A stretch of 64,000 nucleotides of DNA from Latrodectus hesperus (lineage: Eukaryota > Arthropoda > Arachnida > Araneae > Theridiidae): contig CM075856.1 in the NCBI GenBank assembly GCA_037975125.1, forward strand, positions 3,756,949-3,820,948, in the 5' to 3' direction. The notes under the pieces are model-generated. The model searched no databases, had not been told where the DNA came from, and saw only the letters and a program-made list of their open reading frames with translations. Below, one piece after another: positions 4,165 through 42,951 of this stretch. The position numbers and the translations under genes are program-made. Each line of letters starts with the position of its first letter. The first letter of the stretch is position 1.

Positions 4165-4234
4165 CTGTGTAATAAAAAATAGAGTGTTAACAAATGCAAA
4201 TCAATACGGAAATTACCTTTTATTTTGCATTCAA
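4165..4234. repeat. Inner part of left terminal inverted repeat
   Basis: 4,165-4,201 is the inverted counterpart of 5,588-5,624 with two mismatches in 37. The similarity continues with small indels to about 4,234 and so overlaps the last codons of the transposase (stop at 4,220-4,222). Confidence 0.85.
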
Positions 4235-5332
4235 ATGAGTTTCCATGTGGCTGCCGTTGTTGTGGACCACATATTGCATTCTGTGCACAGTATGCACAAC
4301 AGCAGAAAGTAACATGTCTGCATGAATCTCCCGTACAGTCCGTGATATGTTATCCCTCAACGTAGCCAGGTCCTGGACCACTCCTTGATAGACCCTGGAT
4401 TTAAGGTAACCCCACTGCCAGAAATCGCATGGGGTAAGATCAGGCGACCGAGGTGGCCATGCAGTTGGAAAGTAGCAGCTAATAACTCTTTCTGTTGTGA
4501 ATTTCTGTCGTAGCATCTGTTGCACCCGTACAGCAACGTGTGGAGGAGGGACTCCATCTGTCATGAAAATGATTTCCTCCAGGCATTGTCTTTACTGAGG
4601 TGCCGGAATGACAAAGCTGTTCAACATGTGGCGATATTTTTCTCCGGTAACAGAACAGGTTTCCGGTCCTGTCTGGGTAATGTTCTCATAAAAGAATGGA
4701 CCTACTATAAATTCCGCTGTGAACACACACCAAACAGTTACCTTTGGTGAATGTAAGGGAATTGCTGTGATTGCATGTGATGATTTGTCATCCCAAATTC
4801 GGCAGTTCTGTGTATTCACAGTTCCATTCAAGTAAAAGTGGGCCTCGTCTCCCCATAAGATTTTCCACGGCCAAGCATCATCCACCTCCATTCTGGCAAG
4901 AAAGGTGAGAGCAAAAGTCAATCGCTTATCATGGTCGGGGTACAGTAACTCCTGTACACGGCTGATCTTGTACGGATAGAAGTTGATAATCTTTCGTTAG
5001 ATTTTGAATACCGTACTGTAAGGCATATCCATATTCCGAGCTACTCCACGAGCGCTAGAGGTGGCAGCAATATTATCTGGTCCTCTTTCGACAATTGCCG
5101 TGGCAACTGCTTCGATTGTATCCTATGGTACAGGTTTTCGTCCTCTGCCTGACTGAACCTTCAGAGAACCTGTTTTCTCAAACGTCATAACCATTGCTTT
5201 TAGCCCATTAACTGACACAGGACCGTTACCTTTACGCATTTTTTTGTGCATTCTAAAAGCACGAAGAGCGTTGCATTGGTTGAGGTAAAAGAATTTGACC
5301 AGTAACGCACGCTCGACTAAAGAAGGAGACAT
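4220..5332 (-). pseudogene. DUF4817/DDE transposase pseudogene, three nonsense codons
   Basis: Encodes a transposase of the IS630-Tc1-mariner superfamily with an N-terminal DUF4817-like helix-turn-helix. Such enzymes bind the terminal repeats and cut and join DNA through a DDE-type RNase H fold. I chose the Met at 5,330-5,332, just before S-P-S-L-V-E-R-A; the same frame is open upstream to 5,476. The reading frame is continuous over about 371 codons and is broken only by stops at 5,123-5,125, 4,997-4,999 and 4,592-4,594, with no frameshift. Visible landmarks are the helix-turn-helix region ending near SGRGRKPV, then FLARMEVDDAWP, the first acidic motif LWGDEAHF (Asp at 4,847-4,849), a second Asp in FMTDG (4,556-4,558) and RSPDLTPCDFW (Asp at 4,439-4,441 and 4,424-4,426). 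The acidic residues remain, so decay is by point mutation. The family call is confident; the exact subfamily is not. Confidence 0.85.
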
Positions 5333-5552
5333 GGCACATAAACTTCCAATCCGATTGATTCGAAACGTAACACATTGCCTTTTAAAACCCAAGCAGCTGG
5401 CACTGTGCCAATGGATGTAACGTGAAATTTGAATAAAGAACTTCTTCTGCTCAGCGTACGTGATATTGTTGATCATGAGACTTAAGCGGTGCTTATGTAG
5501 ATTTTACGTTTTTTTAAAAGTGTTACCATATTGCACATGAACTACTTCAGAA

Positions 5553-7638: not shown

Positions 7639-9420
7639 ATGTCAGTACAAAGGTTTCTGAAGTTAGAGAATACTTTGGATTTACTAAATAGTTTAGATAC
7701 TGATGAGAGCGACGTTGAAATTGCTATGTTACCACCAAATGCTAGTGAACTAACTGACAAAGATTAAGGGGATTAAAATGAAGTAAACACTGGTGATATT
7801 ATTATAAACGATGTTCCTGTGTCTCTGGAAGTTAGAGCTGGAGATATTTTCGAGCCTGAACCATTCACAATCTCTAGTGTATCAACAACAAAGAGCAAAA
7901 AAAAAGGGGCTAAACGATTTCAATTATCTTGGATAAAGAATAAGTCAACGCAATACACAAAATGGAAAATACAAGGTGAATCAACTGCAAATGACTTTCT
8001 CAAACAGATGGAAGCTGCACTAAAAGACAAAACTCCGCCAAAGCTTTTTAAACAGTTTTATTCCAGTGAAGTTTACGATATCATCGTAAAAGAAACTGTG
8101 CGATATGCCACAGATATAAAAGATGAACACGATTTCTTTACCACTGCTGATGAAATTCGTGTTTTTGTAAAAAATTTGCTTTAAACTGGTTATCATTCAA
8201 ATACCTGTGAACATGACTACTGGTCAGATACCGAAGATCTTGCATTACCCTGGTGAAAAATGCCATGTCACGAAACTGTTTCCAAAAGTTGAAATCTTAT
8301 TTACACTTTGTCGACAATGGAACTCTGAGTCATCACGCTCAGGATCAATCCTTCAAAGTAAAACCTTTGTTTGTCATACTCGATAAAAATTGTATGCAAT
8401 TTGGACACTTCTCTGCAAATCTAAGCATTGATGAAATGACCATCATGTATTATTGTAGGAATGGTCTGAAACTGTTTATCTAAGTTTAGCCAATTCGTTT
8501 TGGATATAAACTTTGGGCTCTCTATGGAAGCGGCGAGAGATATTGTTACAATTTTTCTTTCTATTGTGTTAAAGAATTTTATGCAAGAAATGATTCTCCT
8601 CTAGGTACTCGGGTTGTGATGAAACTAACAGAGAATATAGTTCATCCTTCAAGCTATATTTTATGTTTTGACAACTTTTTTACCAAAATTGATCTTTTGA
8701 AAAGTTTGTGAACAGGGTTTTCGAGCTACAGAAAGCATACGAGAAAATCGGATAAACCATGAATGTCCTCAAGAAGAATCTAAGTCTATGTGGAAGAAAG
8801 AAAGAGACACGTCTGATTTTGCATTTGACGAGAACTCTGAGATTTTTCTGGTGCGATGGAATGACAATTGTACTTTTATTGTTGCTACAAAATTCAGCAC
8901 TTAAGAACCATTGTTTGATGTGAAGAGGTAAGTAAGAAGACACAAAAATAAACTTAACATAAAGATGCATAATTTGATCAATTCTTACAACAAATATATG
9001 GGTGGTGTGGATCACCACGACTGGTTGGCTGGATTTTATTCCATTAAAATTAATGGGAAAAAGTTATACTGGACACTTTTTATTTGTTCATTGGATATGA
9101 CTATGGTAAACGCATGGATAATTCACAAAACTCTCAACAAAAATAAAGCCCTAAACTTGAAGGAGCTCCGAAGATTTGTAACAACACTTTACCTAAAAAC
9201 ATCTATGATAAGAACAAGAGGTAGAACTAGGATCTTGACTGTACCTTCTGGTGCCAAAGGAGACGACGTCCAAAAAGGTAGCGTGTGCCATTTTTTACTA
9301 AAACGAGAAAAACAACGTCATTGTCAAAGAGAGGGCTGCAAAAGAAAACCCAAAATATAATGTGGGAAATGTAACAAAACAGTTCATCAGGATTGCTTTG
9401 GACCTCTCCACCAAGATTAA
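7639..9420 (+). pseudogene. piggyBac-type transposase pseudogene
   Basis: A near full-length but broken piggyBac (PGBD-like) transposase, an enzyme that moves elements by cut-and-paste at TTAA. It starts at the Met of MSVQRFLKLEN, followed by an acidic N-terminal region (SDVEIAMLPP). In-frame stops occur at 7,765 and 7,774 and at 8,182. The frame then shifts, with the central region in another phase (stop at 8,481-8,483), and returns to the first phase for 8,965-9,360. All three aspartates of the family's DDD site are recognisable: N-L-S-I-D-E (8,430-8,432), F-D-N-F-F-T (8,670-8,672) and Y-M-G-G-V-D (9,010-9,012). A cysteine/histidine-rich C-terminus follows (REGCKRKPKI, stop, CGKCNKTVHQDCFGPLH), matching the family's zinc-binding tail. 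Nonsense and frameshift changes make this copy inactive. Its terminal repeats were not found. Confidence 0.9.
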
Positions 9421-10979: not shown

Positions 10980-13622
10980 CCAAGATTATGCCAGTTACGT
11001 TTTAGGGGGAGGCTTGCAAATTATAGTATTATTAATGTACATACATGCCCCTACAGAGGACAAAGGGGATGAAGAGAAGGAAATATTTTATAAAAAGCTC
11101 TCTGAGTGCTTAAGGAACTGCCCACATAATGATGTAATACTTATTTTGGGTGATTTGAATGCTAAAATAGGTAAAGAGAAAGAGTTCAGACCCATTATTG
11201 GTGGCCATAGTGCTCATGAAGAATCAAAATAATAGTATAAGCGTCATTGAGTTTGCTATTGCACATGATCTAGTGGTTGGTAGTACCTATTTTGAACGTA
11301 AAAACATTCATAAATATACCTGGAAATCACCGGATGGGATAACACTTAACCAGATTGATCATGTTCTTGTTGATGCTAGGTATTTTACAAGCTTGATTAA
11401 TGTTAGAACTTTTAGAAGAACTAATATTGACAGTGATCACTATTTAGTGTTAGCTAGGCTAAGAGGTAAAGTCTCTAATGCCAATCAAGAATAAAGTAAA
11501 AAGATAAAAAGGTTTGATTGTAACAAACTTAAAGAGAATACCGTGATCAATAACTTTAGAGAGACTTTAGAAAGGAGAATTTCGGAAGTGAAACTAGATA
11601 TCTCCAATGTAGGCAATCTCGAAGAACTATGTGCCAGTTTAAGAGGGCCATTTCTGATACAGCAGCTGAAATTTTGGGCCACAAGACTAAGGAGAAAAGT
11701 AAGGATTGGTTTGATGACGAATGTAAAGATGCAAATGAGCAAAAACGTATTGCATATAAAAGATCTCTGCAGCATGGTACTAGGGGTGTGTTGGAGGATT
11801 ACCAAAAGGTACGAAGATATGAGAAGAAGGTTTTCAGGGCTAAGAAAAGGGCGTTTGAGGAAGATAGATTCAAGGATGTGGAACACCTCAAGAAGACTAA
11901 TGAATGCCGTACATTCTTTCAAGACGTCAGTTATTGTCGAAGAGACTTTAAACCTAAAATCAACTATTGTAGAAATAAGGCTGGTGTTATCCTTAGTGAA
12001 GGCTCTGAAATTTTGAAGAGATGGGTTGAGCATTTTGAATACCTGCTAAAGATTAATGATTATACTGTTGATACTGCGATTACACAGGAGGAAATCATAG
12101 ATGGACCTTTGGAGCTGGATCTTCCAACTCTGCAGGAAACATTGCTTGCAATAAAAGAGCTCAAAAACAATAAAGCGCCTGCAATAGAGTTCATACAGGC
12201 CGCACTTATAAAAAAAGGAGGGCCAAAGGTGTCAGAGCTCTTACATGGAATAATCCAGTAGGTTTGGACATTCGAGAAGATGCCAGAGGATTGGCTTACA
12301 ATCCTCTTGCTTTGTCCAATTTTCAAAAGGAGCGATCCATTAGTATGTGACAAATATAGAGGAATAACTTAAAGTGCATTTGCTACAAAGTTCTTTCCAA
12401 GATATTGTAGAAGAGACTTGTCCTGTATGTAGTGGACCATATCTTTGGTCTTAGACAAATTATGGAGAAGTGTCATGGATTTGATATAGATTTACATATT
12501 TTTTTATTGACTACAAGGCGGCATATGATTCTATAGACCGCAATGAATTACTTAAGGCTATGCTTGTTTTTGGTATTCCATTAAAGTTAATTAATTTGCT
12601 TAAAATGACCCTCAACTCGACTTCCTGTAAGGTCGTGATCCAGGGACAAATCTCTAGAGACTTTCTTGTTGATAAGGGAGTAAGACAGGGGGATTCTCTT
12701 TCTTGCCTTTTGTTTAAAATCGTTCTTGAAAGAGTCATCAGGAAAACTGGTATCAATATTAGGGGCAGCATTTTCGGAAAATCTGTTCAAGTGGTGGTGT
12801 TTGCAGATAACATTGCACTGGTAGCCAGAAGTAAAAAATACTTAATAGAAGCTTTTGAGGCTATTGAGAAGGAGGCCAGGCCGGCAGGGCTTGTTGTCAA
12901 TCAAGTTAAAACTAAATATTTCCCTGTAACTAGAACCCAATTTACCCAAACTCATCTACTCATTGGTGATTATAAATTTGAAATAGTTGATGAATTTATC
13001 TATCATTGCTCAATGGTTAACAAAAATAATGACATTCTCCCAGAGGTAAGAAAACGTTTAACTGTAGCTAGCCTTTTTTGCCTTAGACAAAGACTTTTTG
13101 GGCCTTAGACATGTATTAAAAACTAAATTTCTATCATGAAAAACTAAGTTACAGATCTATAGAACGCTTATCCGTCCCGTTTTGACCTATGCCTCAGAAA
13201 TTTGGATTTTGACTGTAAGCGAGGAGAAACTGTTGGGCCTATTTGAACGCAGGATTTTAAGAAGTATTTTTGGAGGCACGAAGGAAAACGGTGTCTGGTG
13301 CAGAAGATACAATACAGAAATATATCGAATGTACAAGGAGCTAGGCGTTGTACATCACATTAAAGTATGCCGTCTCAATTGGGTTGGACATGTTATTAGA
13401 ATGAAGGACAATAAAACACTGAGGGATTTTTTTTTGCAAAACCCATCAGCGTAAGAAGAAGAGGAAGACCAAAGCTGAGATGAGTGGATGCAGTCGAAGA
13501 AGACTGTAGGGTCCTTGGAACAAAAAATTGAAGGAGTTTGGCTGCCAGTAGAGGTGGCTGGAAGAAACTTGTTCAGAAGACCTTGGCCCATCCTGGGCTG
13601 GCACGCCATAAATGGTGATGAT
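10980..13622 (+). pseudogene. RTE/BovB-like LINE, 5'-truncated, endonuclease plus reverse transcriptase
   Basis: A non-LTR retrotransposon relic of the kind often annotated as craniofacial development protein 2-like or F52C9.6-like. In order it shows the C-terminal half of an apurinic-type endonuclease (LILGDLNAKIG near 11,140-11,175, IDHVLVDAR, SDHYLVLARL near 11,432-11,461), a linker (DWFDDEC near 11,707) and the reverse transcriptase. RT landmarks are NNKAPA (about 12,166), KYRGIT (about 12,352), FFIDYKAAYDSIDR with catalytic Asp at 12,509-12,511, GVRQGDSLS (about 12,680) and the catalytic box, which reads FADN at 12,800-12,811 where FADD is expected. The C-terminal part carries YASEIWIL and LNWVGHVIRMKDN. 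Frames change several times, stops are common, and a small deletion seems to have fused DHIFGLRQ to a later motif. The 3' end has a GCCCA/TGGGC hairpin and a GGTGATGATGA tail, as in RTE elements. It is inactive. Confidence 0.85.
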
Positions 13623-33900: not shown

Positions 33901-34309
33901 TAAATATGCTTTAAAGTAATTTGTAAAGATATCTGCTTAAAAATAAAAGAAATGAAACGTAAGAATGAGTACTTCCTTATGAAAATGTTTAGATATCACA
34001 ATTTTAATTTATTTTCAATAATATAATTAAATATGCAGTGAAGAAGGATTTTTTATAACATTACATTCAAAATATTTGAAAAAATATTTGTTTTTTGATA
34101 AGTTCTATAACCCCATTTATTGGAATAATATTCAAAAACAAGTATCTAAAATGATTTTGTAATTTTTTGACTGCTCAAATGATTAAATTTTAATGAATTG
34201 ATTAAGTTTTATCAAATATATTTTTCTTTATAAATTACTAAAAAATAAAATATGCGTGATTCAACCGTACATATGAAATTCTTTTTCCTAAATCTGTATT
34301 CCATTCTAC
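30963..34309. other. AT-rich DNA, no gene recognised
   Basis: AT-rich interval. A block at about 31,500-31,770 is richer in GC and open on both strands (31,381-31,641 plus; 31,522-31,761 minus). The minus frame contains MCRKC, but I recognise no family and find no flanking repeats. Confidence 0.5.
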
Positions 34310-34311
34310 TA

Positions 34312-34530
34312 CCCAGTAAACACAAACTGCCGGCAAAAATCCGGGCCGCTGCTGGCCAAGCCGGTTTTCTGTTGGCCACGGCCAGCCGCTCATGGTTGTT
34401 TGATGGCCCAGCTCCGGCCATTACGGCCACGGATGAGTGCTGGCCAAAATGAACCGGGCCGGTGCTGGATGATAAGTAGTGGGCCAACAGATTTTGGCCA
34501 TTGTTGGCCCTGAAGCTGTTGGCCAGCAAA
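34312..34530. repeat. Left GC-rich terminal region of the 6.4-kb element
   Basis: Holds 13 copies of GGCC, mostly as TGGCC or CGGCC, in about 220 bp within otherwise AT-rich DNA. Only the outermost 45 bp or so aligns clearly, in inverted orientation, with the right end. Further in, the two sides share motif content more than exact order. The dense motif suggests repeated binding sites, which is inference. Confidence 0.75.
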
Positions 34531-34689
34531 ATTAAGACAATTAGTTGAAGCGCTATTTTTTATTTTATCGGCAAAGACTATTTTTTTCCAAATAATTATT
34601 TTTTGTGATGTTAATTAATTTTCATTTAACTTCTTACTTTTTAAACTATTTAAAAACAACTTTTCAGAAAGAAATCTAATTTTCACATT

Positions 34690-34804
34690 TATTGCGTATT
34701 CCGCGTGACAATATGACGTCAGATACTGCGAAATGCTTGAGTCAGCGTCAGCCATTAATGTGAAATGGCGGAATGTTGTGTCTGTGAGCTAAGAGAAATA
34801 TAAG
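34690..34804 (+). other. Candidate first exon with strong splice donor
   Basis: A more complex, CpG-containing stretch just inside the left GC-rich block. It includes GACGTCA (34,714-34,720), a cAMP-response-type motif, and an ATG in AATGGCGGAATG. It ends with a near-consensus donor AAG/GTAAGT at 34,804/34,805. The short frame from that ATG closes before the donor, so this is either an untranslated exon or has decayed. Its placement suggests the promoter and first exon of the element's gene. Confidence 0.4.
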
Positions 34805-34810
34805 GTAAGT

Positions 34811-36850
34811 AAGCATTTATTATTGTTGTTTTTATCATGATAGAATTGTTATGAATGAGATGCAAGAATAATATATTTGTTTTATGTTGAAATATTATTT
34901 AATTACTTGTTAAGAAAATTTCATAAGCTGTTGATAACGTGACAACAAAAGAAAGACATTGGAAAATGTTTGTCATTGTATGTTTTAGAATAATTTCATT
35001 CCCATGTGAGGAATAGAAAAATATATCATGCACAGAAGCATTTTTTCATTCCATATATTAGTTATATTTAATCAATTAGTATAATAAATTTTTCAATGCT
35101 CAATTTTTTGAATCCAATTCGATTGCTACTAAGTTTAAACGTATTTATTACATTTTTTGTTTTTTACGAAGCAAGTTTATGGAGTCTAAAAATATTCTAT
35201 TTGAAAGCGCTTAGATGTTTACTTTCAATAAATTAATATATGATATTTTAGCATTTCTGATCAAAAAATTATGTGCGAATTCCATATAAACTTTAATTAT
35301 TTTATTTTTAAAAGGCTTTCTTATTTACTATTATTTTTAAGTCAATTTTTACTGACCGAAATATTTTGTCTTATAAGGATTCGTGGTTTTAAATTTTGTA
35401 TACTCCTCAAAGATCTGTTTTAAGGAATGAAAAATTGTACAATGCATAATATTACAAAATATTTTATTGCATATATAACCTGGTTTTTATGTATAATCCT
35501 GTCAACCATTAAAATCATTGTGGATTTCTTAGCGAAATATTATTGCATCTAAAACTCGAAAAATTGTATAAACTTGAAAATAGTAAATTTTAAAATTTCT
35601 ATAGGAATCTGACAGATTAATTGCCACAAATTAATAAAAAAAACATCTAGAATTATGTGGTTGGAAAATTAATATTAACACTTATGAAAAATGTTCATAT
35701 GGAACAACTTTTATTATATAAATTAGTTGTGTAGCATGTTAACTATTTCTATGTAAAGAATGCTGTCAGATGTAACAGCTTAGTAGCTACTCTTGTGTTT
35801 ACATTATTATATTTAAACCATATTTTATGTTTTTATTTATGATGGAAAAATTGAAGTATGAATTAACAGTAATTTCAATTTGTTTTAATGAAAATATAAG
35901 TTAACTAGAATATTTGTTCCTTTATATTTTGGAGAAAGTGATTAACATTTCAAGCATTTGATGATACTTTTGACATTTTGATCTCTTGATTCTTTTGTAG
36001 TAATGTAAATGGTTTTACTGTTATAGTAAATAGTCGACCGGATAATGGGTAAATGATATATCTTATATATATACACACTTAAACACCATTACATAAACAC
36101 CTTTACCAATTTACAAAGTCTGATTATGATGACAATATTGTCCTAGATATATTGTCAGAATTATTTTTATTTACTTTTGATTTTTCTCTTTAAAGAATTA
36201 AAGTTAAATAAAGAACTTAAATATAATTTTAAACAATGTAAATTAGTAAGGTATTATTTAATCATTTTATTAGAGAAAGAATATAATTTAAGTTTAATCT
36301 TATTTATCAGTTAAGCATTTAATATTTTAAAATTAATATATCATTCATTAACATGTTGGATGTGTTTTACAACTGTTCTACATGATGGATCAGCTGTTTA
36401 CGAATTGCAAATTATTACGAGATCTAAACTTAGAAAAGAAAAAAGTATTGCCCAATTACATAAGGGAAATAGTTAGGTCTTCTTTATTTATATGTTTTAT
36501 CCTTTTTCTGGCTGCTTGCAAAACTTTAATTTGTTATAGAAATTTTTTTATCAATAACATTTGGTATAAATATATTATACTGGAAAGTGACCTTTAATAG
36601 GTATTTTATGGTTATATGTAGTCTCGATCAATGACCACATCTAACCATAAATACAAATAAATTTTCCTTAATATTTTTCAATATCATTAATAATTACAAG
36701 CCAGATAATTTATTTCCTTGTGTTACAATTTTTTTATTATTTGTATTTACAAATAATTGTAAATAATATAATTCTTGCAATTAATTATAATGGTAAATAA
36801 TATTAACAAATAATTGTAATTATAAATACTATTAGCAAGTAAATATAGGT
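34811..36850. other. AT-rich interior of the 6.4-kb element, intron-like
   Basis: AT-rich sequence after the splice donor, compatible with a long intron. An open stretch at 36,382-36,597 begins MMDQLFTNCKLLRDL, but I do not recognise it; it could be chance or a decayed exon. Confidence 0.4.
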
Positions 36851-36859
36851 AATATTTTT

Positions 36860-37007
36860 TTGTCAGGCAGTACTTGGTTGATGACCCTCTTCTGGTTTTG
36901 GATTTTGGTTTGACGACCCTCTTCTGGTTTTGGATTATTGTAGAGTGTACAACGTCATGGACCTGGTCTAGCGCTGCTGGCCTTTGGGGGCATGCAACAA
37001 CAACAAC
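36860..37007 (+). repeat. Short retroposed repeat with (CAA)n tail and 9-bp target duplication
   Basis: A GC-richer 148-bp block containing two tandem copies of a 31-32-bp unit (36,874-36,904 and 36,905-36,936, each with GACCCTCTTCTGGTTTTGG) and ending in a (CAA)n tail. It is bracketed by AATATTTTT at 36,851-36,859 and 37,008-37,016. Tail and duplication point to LINE-mediated insertion. It is a SINE or the 3' end of a LINE, nested in the 6.4-kb element. Confidence 0.65.
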
Positions 37008-37903
37008 AATATTTTTAAAGTAAAGTAACAAATTATTGCTTATATTTATTATTGATGGCTATTTTGCTACTATTTCATTTTATACATTAGCTTTGAAGAT
37101 TGTGTTTCTAACATCCATCCACTCCAATGTAAAGTGTACCAATTTAAACTATAGTCCAGAATCAATAACTTATTTTCTAATAATATTGGATTAAATATAA
37201 ATTTAATACTTTGTGCAAAATAAAAATTATAAAGTTATGTAAAACATTTTTACTTCTAAATAATTCATGATTATGATAATTACTTGTGATGTAAATTTAC
37301 TGTCCAACAACTGGAATGCATGTATTTAAAATCTGAAAATCATTTGCATTAATTGACGTAATTTTTTTCATTAATCTGTAATCACAGGTGTATAAAAAAA
37401 TAAATTCCATGTTAATAAGATTTTGCATAGAATATTGCATAAATAATTCAAAATTTTCAATATGTTTTAAAATTCATCAATATTTATTTTAATTACTATG
37501 ATTTTATAAACTTTACTTATCTCGAATTGTAGTTGTGTATAAAAAATAATTTGGTAATCATTGATGAATATTTTATTTAACCATTTTTTATTAGTTCAAA
37601 ATGATTTTTTAAAAGCATGAAATACAAAGTGAATGTTATAAATTAATTACATTCTATTATAACCTTGAAAATGTAAAATTCTGCTTAAAACATTACATTG
37701 AATTTTTGAAGTCAGATGTTTAGAATTTCTATTAAGTCATTCAACTGAAATTGTTTTCATGTAATCCAATTATTTGTCTCTATTTTTAATCAAAGAATTG
37801 TCAGAATTGATGAATGTTGATTATTCATTTGTTACTTAATGTTATTTATTATAATGTGTATGTATATTGAAATATCAATATGAATATAAACTATAAAACT
37901 AAA

Positions 37904-38090
37904 CTCTGGCAGGACAGACCACATGGGCCAAGGCCTACAGTGCTTATTTTCCTGACCAAGAGCCCCTGGGCTGCGAAGCACATGTCCCGATTAGGTGCTC
38001 AGCATAACGCAAAACACCCAGTGTTTAGTTCCCAAGCATGCTCATGGTGGACATAATGTTACTAATAACCATTCCCCCTTTTTTAAAGAG
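37904..38090. repeat. Short interspersed element with 11-bp target duplication
   Basis: A 187-bp GC-rich block that begins CTCTGGCAGGACAGACC and is flanked by the perfect direct repeat ATAAAACTAAA at 37,893-37,903 and 38,091-38,101. The duplication length is typical of LINE-mediated insertion. No clear box A/B is visible and the orientation is uncertain, so the source family is unknown. It is nested within the 6.4-kb element. Confidence 0.65.
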
Positions 38091-38329
38091 ATAAAACTAA
38101 AATTAAGTAAAAGATTCCATCATAAAAGAATTGTATTAGTAATTTTTTTATGAGTTATTAATTCTGAATGAAAATAGACATTATTATAGGCATTCACAAC
38201 CTATTCAAGTGCTTGGCTTGTTTTGCTTTGACTGTAAATTTAATTGTAAAATATTGTAAGTTTAAAAATAGTTGTGTTGGATTCTCCTTATTCAAAGTTA
38301 ATACTGTGAAATAATACCTACTTCCGAGC

Positions 38330-38431
38330 ACAACTATCGTGGAAGAGGGGAATGTATTGCCTATTTGTAGCTTTGATGAATTGAAAGTTATGGAAGAAAG
38401 GCTCTAAGGCATTGAAGAATTTAGTAAAATG
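38330..38431 (+). pseudogene. Candidate exon resembling the start of a DUF4806 domain
   Basis: A stretch of better coding composition that reads TTIVEEGNVLPICSFDELK, then VMEERL, a stop (38,405-38,407), then GIEEFSKMV, followed by a possible splice donor at 38,431/38,432. The pattern leucine-proline-x-serine/cysteine, a short spacer, an acidic helix with 'E..L' and then 'F..MV' resembles how DUF4806 domains begin. DUF4806 is a domain of unknown function found in arthropod proteins. I compare it from memory only. The upstream acceptor is weak, and the in-frame stop shows decay. No function can be given. Confidence 0.4.
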
Positions 38432-39448
38432 GTAAAAATATTAGTTTAAAAAAGCTTGTTTTTTGTGTGTATAATATATGTATGTATGTACATAATATTT
38501 TAATAGGTTATTATCAAAGAGATTACTTGGGTAATTCTAAGAAAATTAATAAATAATTAAAATTTTTGAATTTACAATTTAATATTATTACAAATTAAAA
38601 TTAATTCCTGACTCAAAATTATTTGAAGCATTTATCATGCGTATATAAATGCAATTTATCATCTTAGAAAAACATTTTAAATTGTATGTCAGTAAACATT
38701 ATTAATAAATTTAACTTATAAAAATGAAAAAAATAATAGAAAATAATAATCCTCAAAATAATAAAAAATACTTTAACAAATTATAACTTCCTATGTCACA
38801 AGTCTGGGCAGTTTTGATTGCCAATTGCAACCAAAATTCCTGTTTATGCAAAATTATTGAATGGAAATCGACCATTCTCACTTACTATATATTTTACTGG
38901 TATTTCTTCCTGTCAAATTAATCCTTTTATGTCCAAGATAATTGCTTCCTTAAAATTAATGTACATCCGTTAGGGTATATATAAATCTTAATTAACATAT
39001 ATAAGATTAACATATATAACATATATAGAATTAACATATAATAGAAGAAAATAGTGCCAAAATATAAGCGAATAAGGAGGAGCTCAAATATTAAAATTTC
39101 TTTCATTGTTAAGAGAAAATACAAAATTAATATTGATCACTGAAATTTAAAGTGAAAACTTATGCACCAATTCAATATAAAAGGATAACTTCCAGCATTT
39201 ATTTAAACAAGAAATTCTTGATTTATTTCTTAGTGAAAAATTTTATTGTTCTTAAAAATTTTATTAACATATATAAATATAAAGCAAACAGAAAAAAAGT
39301 AATTTACTACAAAAATTATCTTTGTTAAAGATTTCTCTTTTCTGTAATTATTTTTTTAAATAATTCTGAATTTATTTTATTACAGGTTACAAAAAGTAAT
39401 CTGAATTGATGTTACCTGTATTAATTTAATTTGATTTTTTATTTTCAG

Positions 39449-39578
39449 TAAGTGTTCGACAGCAAAGAGAATATTCTAGCATTTCGCAACACAAAATAGA
39501 GGAGTATGTAAGAAATTGGCTTTGAAATGCTCCAGATCGGGAAGGAGGAAGGAACAAAAGAAGAAAACTTTTAAATTA
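39449..39578 (+). pseudogene. Candidate terminal exon resembling the end of a DUF4806 domain
   Basis: Preceded by a good acceptor (pyrimidine-rich tract and CAG ending at 39,448). The frame reads SVRQQREYSSISQHKIEEYV, then RNWL, a TGA, then NAPDREGGRNKRRKLLN and a stop at 39,576-39,578. The I-E-E-x-V-x-x-W-L-x-x-A-x-x-R pattern is what I know from C-termini of DUF4806-type proteins. The internal TGA fits a CGA (Arg) codon changed by CpG decay, which would restore a continuous helix. The basic KRRK tail could be a nuclear signal. A poly(A) signal follows at 39,589. Together with 38,330-38,431 this looks like the two ends of one domain split by an intron, with middle exons lost or unrecognised. 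Confidence 0.45.
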
Positions 39579-39588
39579 AAAATACTGT

Positions 39589-39594
39589 AAATAA
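39589..39594 (+). promoter_or_regulatory. Poly(A) signal AATAAA downstream of the candidate terminal exon
   Basis: AATAAA lies 10 bases after the stop codon. The hexamer is common in AT-rich DNA, so its position is suggestive only. Confidence 0.35.
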
Positions 39595-40018
39595 ATAATG
39601 TGACTGGATTTTTGATTGTAAATAAAAAAAATTTTATACAGGATCTGTCTCGTTCTGAGCCATCATTAATAAAAATATCATTGATATAATATAAATTATC
39701 TAATATAAAAAGTTCAGTTTATGTGTGTTTAGTTAAATGTGTTGCATGCTTTACAAAAATACAATAAAACAAATATCATAAAATAATTAAGTTAGAATTT
39801 TATGTATATGTTCATCCGCAGAACAACAGAACAATGAATTTAACAACAGAACAGTTAACAATGAAGTGAAAATTTCTCAAAGATATATTAAAATGTTTAT
39901 TGAATAAAAATAAATAATTACTGCTAATTCAAAAGTAATCTTAACAAATTGGTAAAACATGATTATAATCAACATATAAATGAATTCTATTAGAAAAAAT
40001 ATTTTAGAAAAGAATCAA

Positions 40019-40302
40019 ATCTAATATAAATATGTATTTATACAAAACTAAACTAATATTTACTAGCTCATTACAGTAAAAACTGAAAATTCAAATTTTT
40101 GAAATTGTTTTAATTTATATATAATTATTTCTTAAGAAATAAAAACATTTAATGTTATACTATTAATATATATGTATTTAAATTAATTTTAACAAAAATA
40201 AACTATAATATTCATAAGCTCATTATAATAAAAGTTGAAAATTAAAATTTTTGAAATTGTTTTAATTTATATATAATTATTTCTTAAGAAATAATATGAG
40301 AA
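40019..40302. repeat. Tandem duplication, period about 152 bp
   Basis: Two diverged copies in direct order; the best-conserved part is a 45-bp stretch around 40,093-40,140, repeated around 40,245-40,292. It lies just inside the right GC-rich end of the 6.4-kb element and shows nothing coding. Confidence 0.75.
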
Positions 40303-40451
40303 GAGAGCGGCATCTCTAAATAACCAAAGCAGATTCAATTTAATGCATTTCCAATATATTTCAACAGTAACTTTACAATATATAAATTCTTAGCAATTAA
40401 AAAATGGGTAAATATTTCATTTTAATCTGTGGAAATAAAATCAAAGTTATA

Positions 40452-40739
40452 ATTGGCTCCACGTCGGTTAATGCGGCCATTGCCGGCCAAACTGCAAAGG
40501 CCCGACGGATAACCGTATACGGGCATGTGCTGGCAATTATACGGACCACACACGGCCAATACGGCATTGCTGGCCACCCAGCGTTGGGCCAACAGCGGAC
40601 CGTACTGCCGGTCCAGCAGCAATGACGACGACCACTTTATTGACGGAGCCGACGAGGCCAAATAGCGGCGGGCCGCTGCTGGCCAAGACGGCTGACAGCA
40701 GCGGCCCGATGGATGCCCGGCATCTTTGTGTTTGCTGGG
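40452..40739. repeat. Right GC-rich terminal region of the 6.4-kb element, with hairpin
   Basis: Contains about ten GGCC motifs and ends GTTTGCTGGG followed by TA. Near the end a perfect 13-bp inverted repeat, CGGGCCGCTGCTG at 40,669-40,681 and its complement at 40,696-40,708, can form a hairpin with a 14-base loop. The same 13-mer motif occurs once in the left end, so the right end has gained an extra inverted copy. Confidence 0.75.
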
Positions 40740-40741
40740 TA

Positions 40742-42951
<2,210 letters not shown>

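Follow-up and report, generated by a model that had tools for sequence, protein, structure and literature searches.

A family of large, apparently non-autonomous DNA transposons with CCCAG ends in the genome of Latrodectus hesperus

The element at 34312-40739

The window analysed here is a stretch of 64,000 nucleotides of the Latrodectus hesperus genome (C7:3756949-3820948 in a searched genome of 1.64 Gb and 2912 contigs), and the block at its positions 34312-40739 is a complete copy, 6428 bp long, of a DNA transposon with terminal inverted repeats (TIRs). It belongs to a genuine transposon family, of which this genome contains well over a hundred related copies. Its features, in window coordinates, are as follows.

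34310..34311, no strand: left target-site duplication, TA, from comparison of the flanks
34312..40739, + strand: complete transposon copy, from both termini, the 2-bp duplication and multi-copy relatives
34312..34326, + strand: left terminal inverted repeat CCCAGTAAACACAAA, CCCAGC in the other copies read, from motif scan and copy alignment
34312..34546, + strand: left GC-rich subterminal block of 235 bp with 13 GGCC, the chief left-hand part common with the larger C subfamily (89%)
34714..34804, + strand: stretch resembling a promoter (TGACGTCA, TGAGTCA) with a putative first exon that runs up to the GTAAGT donor at 34805, from reading of the sequence
38318..38431, + strand: putative exon remnant E1, translated as ..SFDELKVMEERL, a stop and GIEEFSKM followed by gt, with one TAA in the window, from reading and genome matches
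39451..39576, + strand: putative terminal exon E2, translated as SVRQQREYSSISQHKIEEYVRNWL, a stop and NAPDREGGRNKRRKLLN, with one TGA in the window, from reading and genome matches
40457..40739, - strand: right GC-rich subterminal block with 10 GGCC
40725..40739, - strand: right terminal inverted repeat, from motif scan and copy alignment
40740..40741, no strand: right target-site duplication, TA, from comparison of the flanks

A reading made from the letters alone (the sequence-only reading) had proposed matching inverted ends 6.4 kb apart with TA outside both of them, and both points hold. In fact the 15-base end motif CCCAGYAAACACAAA is perfect only at 34312-34326 (+) and 40725-40739 (-) in the 64 kb; the remaining six of its eight matches have three mismatches each, and in a control with shuffles the mean was 3.09 matches at up to 3 mismatches, with 2 of 100 shuffles reaching eight. 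Moreover, a GC-rich 17-mer, GGGCCGCTGCTGGCCAA, has two perfect matches on the + strand, at 34343 and at 40670, where none is expected, and with a third match at 40585 (-) carrying 3 mismatches it is confined to both end regions in the window; the shorter inverted 13-mer described by the sequence-only reading is present as well, at about 40697-40709. The outer 235 bases on the left and 330 bases on the right have about 55% GC, as against 27% for the whole element, the interior of which is AT-rich, and 23 of the 62 GGCC in the entire window fall in these two ends. From their arrangement we suggest that the GGCC arrays may be binding sites for a transposase or for a helper protein.

Within the element, a unit of 152 bases stands in two copies near the right end (40037-40341); it is likewise doubled in four other copies (L009, L020, L025 and L028), while one unit has seemingly been lost in L026. 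As for other origins of the block, the region 34000-41000 has no Rfam match at gathering scores and no tRNA was found in the window, and thus a structured RNA and a tRNA were both discarded.

Copies and subfamilies

The genome was searched with a left-end query of 251 bases that started in the flank and took in the TA; 40 of the 634 candidates were scored, all at 97-100% identity. With the terminal exon E2 as query, 150 copies were scored among 296 candidates. Twenty regions were fetched, in 15 of which both ends are found (for L011 the right end coincides with the contig end, and in L023 the last bases are gone), while in L012, L013, L021, L022 and L027 a single end was seen; one of these, L022, is interrupted after its first 1.9 kb and is followed further on by frames like those of a long interspersed nuclear element (LINE).

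The 15 both-end copies are 3.0-7.1 kb long and sort into groups which have the same ends and partly different interiors. A group of 6.9-7.1 kb consists of L009, L020, L025, L026 and L028, the latter four being 98-99% identical to L009; a group of 5.3-5.8 kb with a different right part consists of L010, L014, L016, L017, L019 and L023; and L011, L015, L018 and L024 represent other forms of 3.0-6.4 kb. Nearest to the window copy over the matching stretches are L012 and L021, with 98.7-99.5% identity. The larger C subfamily resembles the 7.1-kb group in its left 235 bases (89%, one C copy having been read) and in roughly 2.6 kb on the right side, for the most part at some 94%, and 5.3 kb of one C interior has little else in common with that group; in the first 5.3 kb of the 11-kb copy on C5 we found no coding exon that it convincingly has in common with the family of the window copy. 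For 40 C-type left ends, scored out of 624 candidates, the 150 E2 and 85 E1 places were examined downstream on the same strand up to 25 kb: E2 follows 24 of the left ends, E1 follows 22, and both follow 20. The pairing at C759:40073 probably joins two copies, adjacent or nested, that were taken for a single one. At C1:7746062-7765680, two same-strand C-type copies meet or overlap, to the precision of the coordinate estimates, as in a head-to-tail arrangement.

Empty sites

The L009 copy interrupts a LINE-like reading frame, and it is the one copy for which empty sites were sought, with a query of 240 bases made by joining its two flanks with a single TA (40 of 54 candidates scored). C10:37272005-37272244 is an empty paralogous site, matching query 1-240 at 98% over 240 of 240 bases, and so is C1672:34300-34539 at 91%; further matches to query 1-240 are found on C5 (83%) and on C6 (81%). 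The filled L009 site itself splits into query 1-120 and 119-240, whose overlap is the two duplicated bases, and the joined site has a frame of 170 amino acids with one TA, against a longest frame of 113 with both. Among the matches listed for the sequences already fetched, nothing usable as an empty site was found. Insertion is precise, as these empty sites and the matching flanks show.

In the sequence-only reading, copies sharing both ends in the same genome, empty sites with a single TA and an autonomous copy were named as what would establish a family; the first are provided by 15 of the 20 fetched regions, the second by the paralogous sites of L009, and the third was not found. A chance pairing of two unrelated GC-rich repeats is ruled out by the perfect paired ends, the both-end copies and the empty sites.

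The target-site duplication

The flanks were compared in 15 copies, namely the window copy and 14 fetched ones, L011 being omitted because its contig ends there. The two flanks match over 2 bp in 14 of them: 13 have TA on both sides, L028, with both ends intact, has CA on both sides, and L023, which lost its end bases, shows a mismatch. The match is exactly two bases except in L026, which is set in a TA repeat where longer matches are possible. The excess of TA at the left flank is partly a matter of selection, because the left-end query reached beyond the element and covered the TA; the right flanks lay outside the query, and therefore something can be learned from their agreement with the left ones.

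The 30 best E2 matches form a second sample, which was picked irrespective of the flank and yielded 28 right flanks (the right side only), leaving out L041, which meets a contig end, and L053, for which no right end was obtained. The right dinucleotide is TA in 10, AA in 6, AT in 4, TT and CT in 2 each, and CA, AG, AC and GA in 1 each, so that 18 of the 28 are other than TA; one of these 28 copies, L043, has an alignment with the family that stops 61 bases before the end, and its flank is therefore less sure. Hence the duplication is 2 bp, and TA is preferred but not obligatory.

Putative gene remnants in the interior

The gene-like signals which had been noted in the AT-rich interior are indeed there, in the form of a putative first exon and the putative exons E1 and E2, and altogether the interior looks like the remnants of a spliced gene, namely a first exon with promoter-like features and, further on, two exons with coding sequence that are broken in the window copy. 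The promoter-like stretch, also present in L009, contains TGACGTCA and TGAGTCA. E1 is free of stops in 45 of 85 genome matches (91 candidates), and E2 in 106 of the 150 scored matches, at 88-100% identity. Across 30 fetched loci E2 differs by 0-3 substitutions; we do not take this conservation as evidence of selection, because these loci are the best-scoring E2 matches. In the B subfamily (the 5.8-kb group), an exon-like stretch of diverged sequence can be read in the place of E2.

By reading, E1 and E2 are reminiscent of the start and the end of DUF4806, but our tests did not support such a resemblance. DUF4806 is a subtype of the BEN domain according to PMC11075544. A Pfam scan of E1, E2 and a further nine longer frames (seven of the window copy and two of L009) had no hit above the cut-off, and no match to DUF4806 (PF16064) for the E1 and E2 fragments, which are shorter than the profile; two weak matches below the cut-off, to PF18993 and PF09022, are regarded as due to chance. 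A search of the genome with PF16064 returned nothing at E 0.001, where the controls were also silent, and at E 10 it returned 27 sub-threshold matches, none of them at an E1 or E2 place by eye, with the control silent again. Nor were protein relatives of E2 found. In 21 of these 27 weak matches the profile is covered from 33 or 34 to 87 in frames of 79-83 amino acids with near-equal scores, and they resemble an exon of another repeat family; another observation is that the weak match at C11:55141213 sits about 5.4 kb from a match to the Mutator transposase profile PF20700 at C11:55134908.

Search for a transposase

The proposal of a large DNA transposon that has no recognisable transposase and cannot be assigned to a family is borne out by the two ends, the many copies and the lack of any stop-to-stop frame of at least 120 amino acids within the window element. 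Among the frames of at least 110 amino acids inside the 15 both-end copies, none of transposase size belonging to the element was seen by eye; the long frames observed belong to retroelements or other transposons around the copies. L022:1422-2552 is a stop-free frame of 377 amino acids, by eye similar to a transposase of the Tc1/mariner type, which lies 4-5 kb beyond the matching stretch of the interrupted copy. Mutator transposases are common in the genome, with 115 entries for PF20700 (114 of 658 candidates scored), and a single one of them lies 27.5 kb from an E2.

Classification and origin of the family

The ends of the element are defined, its target duplication measures 2 bp and there are empty paralogous sites; its copies are numerous and much alike, and its subfamilies have common ends but different interiors. 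It is very probably a non-autonomous cut-and-paste TIR DNA transposon. Under the mechanism that we propose, a transposase made elsewhere would recognise the 15-bp inverted repeats together with the flanking GGCC-rich arrays, excise the element in trans and join it to a staggered cut of 2 bp, preferably at TA. The interior would then be the intron-rich wreck of the own gene of the element, with the first exon near the left end and the last near the right, rather than captured host DNA, and the forms of 7.1, 6.4, 5.8 and 3.0 kb may derive from internal loss and exchange in a larger gene-bearing element of about 10 kb. The simplest account is thus that the family is the decayed, non-autonomous form of a larger gene-bearing element, moved in trans via its ends.

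Several points weigh against this account. A transposase was found neither inside nor close to any of the copies; a match to PF20700 was not found among the scored ones within 15 kb of the 150 E2 places, the 85 E1 places or the 40 C-type left ends, and a search with PF02992 gave no match, its control being likewise silent. Besides, 16 of the 40 C-type left ends have no scored E2 downstream, and the C-type lengths of 4.9-22.8 kb, 20 of 24 between 9 and 14.3 kb, are coordinate estimates; C8:70945200-70967986 is the copy of about 22.8 kb, C852:41000-50600 is another large one, and 5-19 kb separate the C-type left ends from E1. The frames at the joined sites of other copies, with one TA and with both respectively, are 175 and 160 amino acids for L015, 104 and 100 for L019, and 111 and 130 for L024, and they are not decisive; furthermore, the transcription and splicing of the supposed gene are read from the DNA only.

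As to the superfamily, a TA duplication had been taken as a pointer to Tc1/mariner, whose transposase inserts only at TA, and this pointer is now much weakened. It is true that TA is the commonest target dinucleotide here, that it stands on both sides of nearly all copies in the first flank sample, and that L022 has its Tc1/mariner-like frame, although the location of this frame relative to that copy is ambiguous, the right end not being reached. However, the first sample is biased to TA at the left by the query, just 10 of the 28 right flanks of the E2-found copies are TA, L028 with CA at both intact ends departs from a TA-specific duplication, and by eye no such transposase lies inside the both-end copies, nor does the window copy have a frame to hold one; moreover, the present element is much larger, does not depend on TA and bears GC-rich subterminal arrays. 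Tc1/mariner membership is accordingly most improbable. A tentative possibility, to be taken with more seriousness, is a member or sister lineage of CMC (CACTA/EnSpm-Mirage-Chapaev). Its autonomous partner would then code for a transposase of the CMC type, with C(2)C and H(3-4)H motifs, plus an accessory protein that binds DNA, E1 and E2 being remains. Large intron-bearing elements and arrays of short subterminal motifs resemble CACTA elements, in which subterminal repeats and large derivatives with internal deletions are known, and the duplication here, not fixed to TA, falls within the 2-3 bp of this group. PIF/Harbinger elements of the ISL2EU type, which have DDE_Tnp_4 and YqaJ proteins, also have 2-bp target-site duplications (TSDs), as the present family does, and membership there, or in another superfamily with 2-bp TSDs, is conceivable but unlikely. 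In PMC6004678, CACTA elements with 2-bp TSDs are described in a tunicate and in wasp-associated genomes, and animal CACTA/CMC elements such as CMC-NA and ENS1_Cis share with our family the 2-bp duplication and the terminal inverted repeats, but have CAC..GTG ends; the wider CMCT group, according to PMC12730594, has TSDs of 2-5 bp, one lineage with TA TSDs, and mostly CA..TG ends. In contrast, the ends here are CCC..GGG (CCCAG..CTGGG) and no CMC transposase is linked to the family, the silence of PF02992 being shared by its control. Since the duplication is CMC-like but neither the CAC..GTG nor the CA..TG termini are present, the family is filed only as a TIR DNA transposon and no superfamily is named. 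The same paper (PMC12730594) describes the fungal ESTA and PHISTA transposons, which are likewise gene-bearing with TA duplications; however, their transposases are identified and TA TSDs belong to their definition, while here TA is a preference and no transposase was found.

With regard to the interior, the suggestion of a possibly non-autonomous gene carrier stands as far as the gene-like parts are concerned, and its cargo is in our view better read as the decayed remains of the own gene of the element. That the transposon picked up a cellular gene together with its promoter and carries it seems rather doubtful: the promoter-like first exon with a canonical donor and the many stop-free E2 matches would agree with such a capture, whereas subfamilies A, B and C have the exon or an exon-like stretch, diverged in B, in a corresponding position close to the right end, as would rather be expected of a resident gene. 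Moreover no source gene outside the elements was recognised among the 30 of 150 E2 places fetched, 146 candidates being unscored. The family might also represent an undescribed superfamily of DNA transposons, distinguished by ends of the form CCCAG..CTGGG, subterminal arrays rich in GGCC, duplications of 2 bp that have no fixed sequence and a size of about 10 kb or more, with an accessory DNA-binding protein (BEN/DUF4806-like) that reads the arrays and a transposase of as yet unknown type, though this appears improbable on the whole. A literature search found no such family and, for large non-autonomous elements with subterminal arrays, led only to the plant Stowaway, with no claim made as to absence from Repbase or Dfam; among the papers containing the string CCCAGCAAACAC there was no transposon paper by title.

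Other elements in the window

Besides the element at 34312-40739, the window contains the remains of further mobile elements. At 4220-5503 (-), three neighbouring frames look by eye like the remains of the transposase of another DNA transposon, the upstream one scoring below the cut-off of the DUF4817 helix-turn-helix profile (19.6 versus 22.6 bits) and the middle one having no Pfam match. At 7777-9360 (+) lie the remains of a piggyBac-type transposase, with PF13843 above the cut-off in 8932-9360 and no match in 7777-8184. Those at 11560-13108 (+) read like the remains of a non-LTR (long terminal repeat) retrotransposon, with the reverse transcriptase PF00078 in 12485-13108 and no match in 11560-12261.

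Significance

To sum up, the family described here is abundant, and its DNA transposons are unusually large and apparently non-autonomous. Its diagnostic signature is made up of the ends, the duplication and the subterminal arrays, and as this signature is clear, the transposase can be sought by structure. The case also illustrates how a TA beside one copy, together with a query reaching into the flank, can point to the wrong superfamily. Should the missing transposase turn out to be of a kind not met before, a superfamily would be added by this family; if not, we would have a case of non-autonomous copies which retain much of a decayed gene instead of shrinking to miniature inverted-repeat transposable elements.

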